Source: Alphaproteobacteria bacterium (GTDB lineage: Bacteria > Pseudomonadota > Alphaproteobacteria > Rhodobacterales > Rhodobacteraceae). From it: 64,000 nucleotides of DNA. Shown one piece after another: positions 1-48,711 of this stretch (position 1 is its first letter; every line of letters starts with the position of its first letter). The translations under genes and the position numbers were made by a program. Location: positions 124,001 through 188,000 of the forward strand of contig JAUHVR010000006.1 of the NCBI GenBank assembly GCA_030424865.1, given 5' to 3'. The notes beneath the pieces are model-generated. The model ran no database searches, was not told the origin of the DNA, and was given only the letters and a program-made list of their open reading frames with translations.

Positions 1-522
1 CAGCAGCACCAGGTCGCCTTTGCCCGCCTGCGCCAGGTCGGCCATCATGCCGTCAAAGTCGACGCCGCGTGTCTCGTCATCGAAGTAGCGATAGGTCACC
101 GTCTCGATCTTCATATGCTTGAGGATCGACAGGTGGTTCGGCCAGGTCGGGTTCGACACAAAGACCCGGACATCCGGATTGGCCATCTTGGCCATGTCAA
201 AGGCCTGGCGCACCGCGCCGGTGCCACCCGGGGTCGCCGCCGCCGCCACGTTGGCGCGCGGCACCGCATCCCCCAGAACCAGAGAAATCATCGCGTCCGA
301 GAACCCGGGATCGCCGGCAAGCCCGGTGTAGGACTTGGTGGTCTCGGCTTCCCAGAGCTGCTTTTCAGCCGATTTGATGGCGCGCATGATCGGCGTCATG
401 CCTTCGGCGTTCTTGTAGACGCCCACGCCAAGGTCGATCTTGTCGGCGCGTGGGTCTTCGCGAAAGGCTTGCATCAGCGCCAGGATCTTGTCGGCGGGCT
501 GTTTCTGGATGGCTTCGAACAT
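1..522 (-). CDS. Aromatic/aspartate aminotransferase, N-terminal part
   Basis: This is the first 174 residues of a class I PLP-dependent aminotransferase; the C-terminal part, with the PLP lysine, lies beyond the left edge. The N-terminus (MFEAIQKQPADKIL, then DPRADKIDLGVGVYK) and the TPGGTGA loop that contacts the cofactor phosphate are typical of the AspC/TyrB group, which transfers amino groups between aromatic or acidic amino acids and 2-oxoglutarate. The start ATG shares its A with the TGA stop of the sulfurtransferase gene (TGATG), so the two are very likely translationally coupled. Assignment to the family is firm; aspartate versus aromatic specificity cannot be told from this part. 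Confidence 0.85.
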   Translation of the reverse strand, partial: MFEAIQKQPADKILALMQAFREDPRADKIDLGVGVYKNAEGMTPIMRAIKSAEKQLWEAETTKSYTGLAGDPGFSDAMISLVLGDAVPRANVAAAATPGGTGAVRQAFDMAKMANPDVRVFVSNPTWPNHLSILKHMKIETVTYRYFDDETRGVDFDGMMADLAQAGKGDLVLL

Positions 523-1376
523 CAGGTGTCTCCGGTGGCAATCGGCACGGTGGGGAACATGCCCCATTCGGCCCATGAGCCGTCATAGAGCGCATGATCG
601 GTCTTGCCAATCCGCTCCATGGCGAGGCTGAGCACGGCAGCCGTCACGCCTGAGCCGCAGGTGGTGATGGCGGGCTTGGACAGGTCCACGCCAGCCGCTT
701 CGAAGGTGGCGCGCAGGCCTGCGGCATCCTTCATGGTGCCGTCGGCGTTCAGCAGGGTCTTGAAGGGCACGTTCTTGGAATTCGGAATGTGACCAGCGCG
801 CAGGCCGGGGCGGGGTTCGTCAGCCTCGCCGCGATAGCGTTCTGCGGCGCGGGCGTCGATGATCTCGTGATCCTTCAGCTTGGATGCCGCCGACACCTGG
901 GTGATGTCGCGCACCATATGTGCCTGACGGCGCACGGTCATGTGACGGTCGCGCACAATGGGAGGCATATCCTCGGTCGGGCGATCCTCGGCCAGCCATT
1001 TCGGCAGTCCGCCGTCCAGCACGGCCACATCCATCTGGCCCATCAGCCGGAACAGCCACCAGACACGCGCCGCCGAGAACAGGCCCACGCTGTCGTAGAC
1101 CACCACCTGGTGTCCGTCACCCACACCCATGGCGCGCAGACGGGACATAAATTTCTCGATCGGCGGCGCCATATGCGGCAGGTCCGACCGGTTGTCCGAA
1201 ATCTCTTCGATGTCAAAGAACCGCGCGCCGGTGATATGGGCGGCCTCATACTCGGCGCGGGGGTCGCGGTTGTCCGTGGGCAGGTGCCAGGACGCGTCCA
1301 ATACCCGCAGGTCCGGATCCTTGAGATGCTGTGCCAGCCAGGCGGTGGACACCAGTGTTTTCGGATCATCCTGCAT
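522..1376 (-). CDS. sseA: 3-mercaptopyruvate sulfurtransferase
   Basis: This 284-residue protein has two tandem rhodanese domains. The N-terminal, non-catalytic domain contains a DASWHLP region and the C-terminal domain carries the catalytic cysteine in CGSGVTA, a loop of the 3-mercaptopyruvate rather than thiosulfate subgroup. It transfers sulfur from 3-mercaptopyruvate to cyanide or thiols, a cysteine-degradation step in the cytoplasm. The ATG at 1376 is chosen because the protein begins just before the first rhodanese domain (MQDDPKTLVSTAWLAQHL); the upstream in-frame extension is low-complexity. It overlaps the downstream aminotransferase, which could make mercaptopyruvate from cysteine, so the pair may act together (inference). 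Confidence 0.9.
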   Translation of the reverse strand: MQDDPKTLVSTAWLAQHLKDPDLRVLDASWHLPTDNRDPRAEYEAAHITGARFFDIEEISDNRSDLPHMAPPIEKFMSRLRAMGVGDGHQVVVYDSVGLFSAARVWWLFRLMGQMDVAVLDGGLPKWLAEDRPTEDMPPIVRDRHMTVRRQAHMVRDITQVSAASKLKDHEIIDARAAERYRGEADEPRPGLRAGHIPNSKNVPFKTLLNADGTMKDAAGLRATFEAAGVDLSKPAITTCGSGVTAAVLSLAMERIGKTDHALYDGSWAEWGMFPTVPIATGDT

Positions 1377-46857: not shown

Positions 46858-47646
46858 TTACAGATCGAAAGTGGCAAAAACCGGCGCGTGGTCGCTGGGT
46901 TTTTCCCACCCACGCGCGTCGCGCAGGATGCGGCTGGAATGCGCGGCACCTGCGATGTCGGGTGTGGCCCAGACATGGTCCAGTCGGCGGCCCTTGTCCG
47001 CGGCGTCCCAATCGCGGGCGCGGTAGCTCCACCAGCTGTACAGCAACCCCTCGGGGATGTCGGCGCGGGTCACGTCGACCCATTTCCCTGCATCCATCAC
47101 CTGGGCCATATGCTCGACCTCGATAGGGGTGTGGCTGACCACCTTGAGCATCTTCTTGTGGTCCCAGACATCGTCTTCGCGCGGAGCGATGTTCAGATCG
47201 CCGACCAGAATCGCCTTCTCGGGCGTTTCCGCGTGAAACCAGTCGCGCATGTCGGTCAGGTAGTCGAGCTTTTGTCCAAACTTCACGTTCTTTTCGCGGT
47301 CCGGCGCGTCACCACCTGCGGGGACATAGAAGTTGTGGATCGTCACGCCGTTTTCCAGCCGCCCCGCCACATGGCGGGCATGGCCCAGACCGGCGAAATC
47401 CTTGTCGCCCGCATCCTCGATCGGCAGCTTCGACAGGATCGCCACGCCGTTGTAGCCCTTTTCGCCGCGCGCGACCATGTGGCGATAGCCGAGGGCCTCG
47501 AAGACTTCGACCGGGATCTTGGGCACCGGCGACTTGCATTCCTGCAAACACAGCACGTCGGGGGCCTCTTCGGTCAAAAGCTTCGACACCAGATTGGCGC
47601 GCAGACGGACCGAGTTGATGTTCCAGGTGGCAAGGGTGAAGGACAT
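46858..47646 (-). CDS. xth: Exodeoxyribonuclease III
   Basis: Exonuclease III cuts abasic sites and degrades 3' ends during base-excision repair. The 262-residue EEP-fold protein has ATWNINSVRLR, CLQECKSP, the GYNGVAILSK loop, LVGDLNIAPREDD and SDHAPV, so the metal- and catalytic-site residues are intact. It is separate from the response regulator by a 226-bp region that contains the candidate small RNA. Confidence 0.97.
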   Translation of the reverse strand: MSFTLATWNINSVRLRANLVSKLLTEEAPDVLCLQECKSPVPKIPVEVFEALGYRHMVARGEKGYNGVAILSKLPIEDAGDKDFAGLGHARHVAGRLENGVTIHNFYVPAGGDAPDREKNVKFGQKLDYLTDMRDWFHAETPEKAILVGDLNIAPREDDVWDHKKMLKVVSHTPIEVEHMAQVMDAGKWVDVTRADIPEGLLYSWWSYRARDWDAADKGRRLDHVWATPDIAGAAHSSRILRDARGWEKPSDHAPVFATFDL

Positions 47647-47730
47647 GCGAGGCTCCGATTTCGTGTGCCGCGCAAAACTGCCGGGAACGCAGGCCACGTG
47701 CAACCCGAAGTCTGTGCAAAAGACCCGCGC

Positions 47731-47759
47731 AAAAAAAGACCCGGGTCGATGCCCGGGTC
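47731..47759 (-). terminator. Rho-independent terminator (minus strand)
   Basis: An 8-bp perfect stem, GACCCGGG and CCCGGGTC with a 6-base loop, is followed on the minus strand by seven T's. It is one of the strongest terminators in the window and lies 85 bp before the xth ATG. Confidence 0.9.
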
Positions 47760-47808
47760 AGTCCAACAGGGAGGTGCATGTGATGACCCGCACATGCGAC
47801 GGGGTGCT
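47731..47808 (-). ncRNA. Candidate 78-nt small RNA with Fnr-type promoter
   Basis: The minus strand has an Fnr-type box (47842-47855), a TTTAAG -10-like element at 47815-47820 and an expected start near 47808. The transcript would contain a first hairpin (GCATGTG/CACATGC, 47776-47797), an unpaired stretch with CCTCCC, able to pair with Shine-Dalgarno sequences, and a strong terminator stem with a U-run. It has no plausible ORF. The organisation is that of a trans-acting small RNA. The alternative is that these are just the terminator of the regulator gene and an unrelated downstream hairpin. Confidence 0.5.
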
Positions 47809-47825
47809 TACGAACTTAAAAGGTG

Positions 47826-47866
47826 CCTGCCGAATACGACTTTGATTCATGTCAAAGTCTGGCAGG
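47826..47866 (-). terminator. Composite hairpin after the response-regulator gene
   Basis: The outer arms CCTGCC (47826-47831) and GGCAGG (47861-47866) and the inner 8-bp perfect stem GACTTTGA/TCAAAGTC fold into one structure 7 bases after the regulator stop; TTTT follows on the minus strand at 47818-47821. It probably ends the regulator mRNA. The inner stem coincides with the Fnr-type box. Confidence 0.6.
47842..47855. promoter_or_regulatory. Fnr-type box TTGAT-N4-GTCAA
   Basis: TTGATTCATGTCAA matches the Fnr/FnrL consensus (TTGAY-N4-RTCAA) in both half-sites. Its centre (47848.5) is about 41 bases upstream of the likely small-RNA start at 47808, the class II activator position. The same bases form the loop-proximal stem of the hairpin above, so chance palindromy is possible. 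Confidence 0.45.
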
Positions 47867-47872
47867 AAATCT

Positions 47873-48559
47873 CTACGACACCAAACGATACCCGCCGGAT
47901 TCGGTCACAAGAAGGCGCGCATTGGACGGATCTGGTTCAATTTTTTGCCGAAGACGGTAAATATGCGTCTCCAACGTGTGGGTTGTGACCCCGGCGTTAT
48001 AGCCCCAGACCTCGTGCAGCAGCACGTCGCGGGCCACCACGCCATCGTTCGAGCGGTAGAGAAACTTGAGGATGTTCGTCTCTTTCTCGGTCAGGCGGAT
48101 TTTGCGATCATCCTCGGTGCTCAGCAGCTTCATCGAGGGTTTGAAAGTGTACGGCCCAAGCGTGAACACGGCGTCTTCGGACTGTTCATGCTGGCGCAAC
48201 TGGGCGCGGATACGGGCCAGAAGGACCGGGAACTTGAAGGGCTTGGTGACATAGTCATTGGCACCTGCGTCCAGGCCCAGGATGGTGTCGGCATCGGTGT
48301 CATGGCCGGTCAGCATCAGGATCGGAGATTTCACACCCTGCTTGCGCATGATCCGGCACAGCTCGCGTCCGTCGGTATCGGGCAGGCCGACGTCCAGGAT
48401 GATCAGGTCATAGTTCTGTTCCTTGACCCGCGACATGGCCCCGGCGCCGTTGTCGGCCTCGAACACCTCGAAGTCCTCGGTCATGATCAGCTGCTCGGCA
48501 AGCGCCTCGCGCAGGTCGTCGTCGTCATCCACCAGAAGGATATTTTTGAGCTGGGCCAT
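47873..48559 (-). CDS. OmpR-family response regulator
   Basis: This 228-residue protein has a receiver domain (ILLVDDDDDLREAL, phospho-acceptor Asp in LIILDVGLPDTDGREL, LMLTGHDT, KPF lysine) and a C-terminal winged-helix domain (RLTEKETNILKFLYRSNDG, THTLETHIYRLRQKI). It is a DNA-binding transcription factor activated by phosphorylation. No sensor kinase gene is adjacent, so the partner and regulon are unknown. AAGGAG precedes the ATG at 48559. It is divergent from ribA over 152 bp. Confidence 0.93.
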   Translation of the reverse strand: MAQLKNILLVDDDDDLREALAEQLIMTEDFEVFEADNGAGAMSRVKEQNYDLIILDVGLPDTDGRELCRIMRKQGVKSPILMLTGHDTDADTILGLDAGANDYVTKPFKFPVLLARIRAQLRQHEQSEDAVFTLGPYTFKPSMKLLSTEDDRKIRLTEKETNILKFLYRSNDGVVARDVLLHEVWGYNAGVTTHTLETHIYRLRQKIEPDPSNARLLVTESGGYRLVS

Positions 48560-48711
48560 TCGGTCATCTCCTTGCGTTTCAGCCCAAGATGTGGGCACTG
48601 TCCCAATCCTCAAGATTTGCTGCAATACATTCACGGGCTCGTGTTCGGACGTGGCAATTGTTACGAAAAAACCGCAGAATGTTGCAGACTTCCGTTGGAC
48701 AGACCCGGGCT

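Follow-up and report, generated by a model that had tools for sequence, protein, structure and literature searches.

A SorX small RNA gene of a Roseobacter-group bacterium, probably supplied both by transcript processing and by its own FnrL-type promoter

Results

The SorX locus and its neighbours

The window, that is, the whole stretch of 64,000 nucleotides that was analysed, contains a single Rfam match that reaches its gathering score. This match is to SorX (RF02784) at 47733-47804 on the minus strand, with 74.6 bits against a gathering score of 46.6 (E = 1.9e-16, whole-window scan), and the alignment covers the full length of the model (1-73). The initial annotation had proposed a discrete small RNA gene here, which the match bears out, although the known family to which it belongs went unrecognised: the small RNA at 47731-47807 is an ortholog of SorX and not a new RNA. 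The features of the locus are as follows.

46858-47646, minus strand: xth, exodeoxyribonuclease III gene, downstream of SorX on the same strand (TIGR00633, 163 bits against a cut-off of 99)
47731-47807, minus strand: SorX small RNA (Rfam match 47733-47804 plus predicted start)
47731-47759, minus strand: intrinsic terminator GACCCGGGCATCGACCCGGGTC (hairpin 47759-47738), then seven T's, from a terminator search
47761-47774, minus strand: single-stranded anti-Shine-Dalgarno segment CCTCCCTGTTGGAC, conserved; presumed target-pairing region
47776-47797, minus strand: 5' hairpin of SorX, GCATGTG/CACATGC, with conserved GGGTYA in the loop (compensatory pair changes)
47806-47808, minus strand: predicted transcription start, from class II spacing; a box centre at -41.5 gives 47807
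47815-47820, minus strand: -10-like element TTTAAG, its TA step 37 bases after the box start
47838-47859, minus strand: 8-bp stem GACTTTGA/TCAAAGTC enclosing the box (fold; not conserved in relatives)
47842-47855, minus strand: Fnr-type box TTGACATGAATCAA, likely FnrL site (motif; position conserved in 55 of 395 genomes)
47873-48559, minus strand: OmpR-type response regulator gene, counterpart of ompR-1/RSP_0847 of R. sphaeroides (Pfam Response_reg and Trans_reg_C)

The order of the locus is hence OmpR-type regulator, SorX and xth, with the regulator stop codon about 100 bp upstream of the SorX core. The longest reading frame of the regulator gene opens at 48634, the ATG at 48559 (MAQLKNILLV) being the likelier start. 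SorX occupies the 3'-UTR position after an OmpR-type regulator gene that characterises its family, and in relatives it is likewise preceded by regulator proteins that are 78-94% identical. Among the matches listed, the nearest named regulators are those of Marivita, with 92-93% identity, which places the window in the Roseobacter group. A strong SorX is carried by 233 of the 395 family genomes.

Anatomy and fold of the RNA

The RNA has the layout of the SorX family, with two hairpins flanking a single-stranded CCUCCCUGUUGGA segment, plus a terminator. The 7-bp hairpin that had been read from the letters (47797-47776) is present and is backed by 206 distinct relatives, in which compensatory changes occur at all six consensus pairs and approximately 95-98% of cells are paired. 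The GGGTYA of its loop is conserved among the collected relatives and was not part of the bait by which they were collected; the bait was the CTCCCTGTTGGA core, the invariance of which is therefore by construction. When the RNA of the window is folded by itself, a longer hairpin has the minimum energy (-32.7 kcal/mol, as against -26.6 kcal/mol for the conserved two-hairpin form). The strong terminator with seven T's also stands as described, at 47759-47731. It is the only terminator found across 47600-48000, so that there is none between the regulator gene and SorX. The CCTCCC segment, described earlier as an exposed loop, is indeed unpaired (CCTCCCTGTTGGAC, 47774-47761), but it forms a single-stranded linker between the two hairpins rather than a loop.

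An Fnr-type box at class II spacing

The Fnr-type box is near-palindromic, reading TTGAC-ATGA-ATCAA on the minus (transcribed) strand and TTGAT-TCAT-GTCAA on the plus strand, and it matches the near-consensus TTGAT-N4-ATCAA at 9 of 10 bases. The box is thus where the initial annotation had placed it, although TTGAT-N4-GTCAA was the plus-strand spelling quoted as that of the minus strand. The elements of the promoter proposed there, a box about 41 bases before a start with TTTAAG between the two, are likewise present: the box centre at 47848.5 lies 41.5 bases before 47807, and this predicted start lies three bases before the Rfam boundary. As a -10 element, TTTAAG is only moderate, and a consensus scan of the site found no sigma-70 promoter near SorX. 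Taken on its own, the 64-kb window could well contain such a box by chance (1 match against 0.27 expected; 26 of 100 shuffles give at least one); the box rises above chance only by comparative evidence.

For this comparison, the pattern TTGAY-N4-RTCAA, followed by CCTCCCTGTTGGAC 45-75 bases on, was searched in the 395 family genomes, with the reversed pattern as control. Matches upstream of SorX were found in 55 genomes and none was found with the control; the strict box lies some 60-90 bp upstream of the conserved SorX core, and a base-frequency estimate puts the chance expectation at approximately 0.03 over 233 SorX loci. Among named genomes, at least 117 stretches carry both box and SorX, including those of Ruegeria, Roseovarius, Shimia, Marivita, Phaeobacter and Leisingera, and the regulator lies directly upstream in 79 of 80 named loci (L062-L141, among the matches listed). 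Another fourteen loci, which lack the strict pattern, show an imperfect version in the equivalent position, and its score exceeds that of 99.9% of shuffled backgrounds.

When 130 distinct loci are aligned on the first base of the box, the box is followed by AG, and by TA at index 36-37. In a set of 135 distinct loci the TA step falls at index 36 in 79% and at index 37 in 14%, together 93%. Its position is sharp when counted from the box and smeared when counted from SorX, where no single position exceeds 32%, and the distance between box and SorX varies. Index 36-41 is where the -10 hexamer lies when an Fnr box is centred at -41.5, the class II spacing. Since TA keeps to index 36-37 whatever the distance to SorX, the arrangement points to class II promoter spacing; example sites in Dinoroseobacter shibae promoters are also centred at 41.5 (PMC5398030). 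The earlier view of the box as a promoter-like element is in keeping with this conservation, and the arrangement expected of an FnrL regulon member, a box at activating distance from a -10 element that is conserved in relatives, is found at the locus.

The box is not universal. It is missing in a relative of the same genus (G001), and outside the Roseobacter branches most SorX loci have either no box or none that can be recognised. When 116 regulator proteins are arranged in a tree, those with a box are dispersed over the Roseobacter part, and few fall in the clade that contains R. sphaeroides; this set was partly chosen for box presence, which biases the proportions, and most inner branches are weakly supported. 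Given this patchiness, the promoter appears to be common but labile.

FnrL in this genome and at the R. sphaeroides ortholog

The genome encodes an FnrL ortholog (NF045989 equivalog, 468 bits against a cut-off of 300) with N-terminal cysteines and the sequence E-T-V-S-R, which conforms to the E-x-x-S-R motif. The genome has about 12 sites of the form TTGAYNNNNRTCAAAG, and contig C9 carries five of these in the surroundings of fnrL. Bound FnrL sites of R. sphaeroides share the spelling of the box, for example TTGACgcagATCAA and TTGACatgcATCAA (PMC2908626).

An FnrL ChIP-seq study in R. sphaeroides reported that the putative promoter of RSs2461, as SorX was formerly called, contains a site, although its authors could not establish the effect of FnrL on this RNA (PMC4263372). 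The site means FnrL binding, not regulation. The R. sphaeroides SorX locus (L202) was recognised by its published coordinate of 2,598,224, against a match at 2598225. Inspection of this locus by eye reveals TTGCGTGAGATCAA (TTGCG-TGAG-ATCAA), with TATAAA exactly at index 36-41; the site is weak, its promoter score not rising above the 99% background. A ChIP-supported hemN site is also of the TTGCG type (PMC2908626). We also considered whether an FnrL-dependent start could form the 5' end of the published 116-nt precursor in R. sphaeroides, and rejected this, as that end at 2,598,182 lies 14 nt upstream of the predicted 2,598,196. In the literature that we found, the ChIP-seq remark in PMC4263372 is the only link between FnrL and SorX, and the main texts of the R. 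pomeroyi and P. denitrificans sRNA papers do not mention SorX.

Discussion

Processing, an own promoter, or both

SorX serves as a standard example of a 3'-UTR-derived small RNA tied to singlet-oxygen stress. In R. sphaeroides it is described as an RNase E cleavage product of the regulator 3' UTR that responds to oxidative stress, as a member of the RpoHI/HII stress network (PMC8307010) and as a repressor of potA (PMC9438474). The RNA of the window shares with it the full-length RNA family, the place after an OmpR-type regulator, the CCUCCCUGUUGGA segment and the terminator. The two differ in that the R. sphaeroides RNA is known as a 3'-UTR processing product under RpoHI/HII and has the weaker site TTGCG-TGAG-ATCAA, whereas the window and many Roseobacter-group genomes have a near-consensus FnrL-type promoter sequence directly before SorX.

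The published account of processing from the regulator transcript under RpoHI/HII counts against the FnrL promoter reading. One could hold that SorX arises only by RNase E processing of the regulator 3' UTR and that the Fnr box is a chance occurrence or a relic; the biogenesis published for R. sphaeroides speaks for this, as do the missing terminator between the regulator gene and SorX, the chance-level occurrence of the box in the window and its absence from the nearest relative. Nevertheless, box and fixed-distance -10 recur in 55 of 395 genomes where the reversed pattern gives none, and FnrL occupies a ChIP-seq site at the R. sphaeroides ortholog, and we consider processing alone to be unlikely. 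It would be far less likely still that the inverted repeat was selected as an RNA stem in the regulator 3' UTR, as an mRNA end or RNase barrier, and merely resembles an Fnr box. Within this window the box does lie inside the 8-bp stem, with an outer CTGCC/GGCAG stem and a fold z-score of -3.61, and to that extent the earlier remark that the box is part of a stem is correct. As a conserved feature the stem does not survive comparison: in the set of 135 distinct loci, base pairs on either side of the box are about as frequent as in shuffled sequence (observed/shuffled 36/37, 64/64, 60/55, 68/62 and 52/48), so that the stem is not the reason for the conservation of the box. Moreover, the conserved AG after the box has no paired counterpart, and no T run was found after the stem. 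The RNA stem is thus contradicted as a general explanation; in this one genome it may have arisen by accident or be an additional feature.

The identity of the protein at the box bears on the signal. Another Crp/Fnr regulator of the Dnr/NnrR type would imply nitric-oxide rather than oxygen control, and the Dnr proteins of Dinoroseobacter shibae do have the same type of site (PMC5398030). However, among the HTH_Crp_2 matches examined in this genome, only FnrL (L206) has the E-x-x-S-R recognition motif within a Crp/Fnr protein, and the spelling of the box agrees with FnrL sites; a Dnr-type protein is hence an improbable occupant. That FnrL represses SorX in some relatives through a box near the RNA start seems to us highly improbable. 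The idea draws on four loci (G246, G338, G324 and G220; L191, L280, L252 and L259) with a box 49-52 bp before the core, where it would overlap or follow a -10; such loci are few, and the arrangement in the window differs. A box at 49-52 bases before the SorX core could not activate at class II spacing, and might repress.

We conclude that this SorX gene of a Roseobacter-group bacterium is probably supplied both by processing and by a class II FnrL promoter of its own, so that an own start and the regulator transcript, posed in the initial annotation as an either/or, would probably coexist. By one route, SorX would be processed from the regulator transcript, as is suggested by the common locus arrangement and by the two genes not being separated by a terminator. 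By the other, it would be transcribed directly from the class II promoter, with the box centred 41.5 bp before approximately 47807. When oxygen is low, FnrL carrying an iron-sulphur cluster would bind the box and start an RNA of about 77 nt that is nearly identical to the processed form. The family identity and the conserved geometry of box and -10 are established by the sequence comparisons, whereas FnrL as the binding protein, the position of the start, the response to oxygen and the targets in this genome are inferred. The exposed CCUCCCUGUUGGA segment, presumably with Hfq, would then block the ribosome-binding sites of target mRNAs. Comparative evidence for such a promoter, as judged from genome sequences, is good, and the SorX literature that we found does not describe it.

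If this is correct, the FnrL promoter would explain the RSs2461 ChIP-seq site of open effect, and SorX in marine Roseobacter-group bacteria would come under the control of oxygen limitation as well. SorX would then be a clear case of one small RNA obtained from either processing or a promoter. We lean, with less assurance, towards a broader proposal: in the Roseobacter group, the class II FnrL promoter may, in the absence of oxygen, give rise to practically the RNA that RNase E otherwise releases from a stress-induced regulator mRNA. A single RNA would then act both in oxidative stress and in the transition to low oxygen, and would be the alphaproteobacterial counterpart of FnrS.

FnrS of Escherichia coli is a small RNA under direct Fnr control that represses target RNAs without oxygen, according to PMC4263372. 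It is a working comparison for an Fnr-regulated repressor RNA, although its locus and, as far as known, its targets differ. RSs2461 is reported to have no sequence similarity to FnrS (PMC4263372), and no Rfam match to FnrS was found in the window. PcrZ of R. sphaeroides is likewise a small RNA in whose transcription FnrL is involved; it differs in being 136 nt long, with its own promoter and photosynthesis-gene targets, and it has no Rfam match in the window.

Candidate targets

Searches for targets were carried out piecemeal over parts of the genome. For the three PotA homologs above cut-off, simple duplex energies of SorX pairing at the start sites tried are -8.7 to -12.6 kcal/mol, against a background median of -14.2 kcal/mol; these are ordinary values, and they lend no support to potA as a target here. 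One lower-scoring PotA homolog gives -22.1 kcal/mol, between the 1st and 5th percentile of the background.

Outside SorX and SorY, CAACAGGGAG precedes four start sites, where by our own estimate approximately 2-3 are expected by chance. The genes concerned encode a sugar-type ABC binding protein, a SoxA-like cytochrome, a nucleotidase-like protein and an amino-acid-type binding protein, and these sites are only leads, not above chance. At two of these places, the ribosome-binding site of an ABC binding-protein gene (L292, G000:C32:48635) and near the start of the SoxA-like gene (L291, G000:C28:55265), CAACAGGGAGG is found, an 11-base perfect complement to SorX CCTCCCTGTTG. These may be targets, although as a group they are not above chance.

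Related small RNAs

SorY (RSs1543, RF02651) resembles the RNA of the window in ACCUCCCUGUUGGACU, the anti-Shine-Dalgarno segment and the terminator layout; they differ in family, the window RNA scoring 32.9 bits against the SorY gathering score of 111. A second anti-Shine-Dalgarno small RNA of the genome lies at 488-567, minus strand, of L221 (G000:C35:335200-336200). It is SorY-like, with 54.1 bits against the gathering score of 111, and as SorX it scores 47.8 bits, above the cut-off of 46.6. Two further terminator-ended segments of this genome, with CCTCCCTGTC-GAC and weak SorX scores of 25.9-27.2 bits, occur at 525-586 (minus) of L223 and 452-520 (minus) of L225; the latter follows an apparent coding-sequence end and is possibly another 3'-UTR small RNA of the same design. 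Finally, two loci (L010 and L015) have tandem SorX-like copies behind the regulator gene, with two CCTCCCTGTTGGAC segments, each with a terminator.
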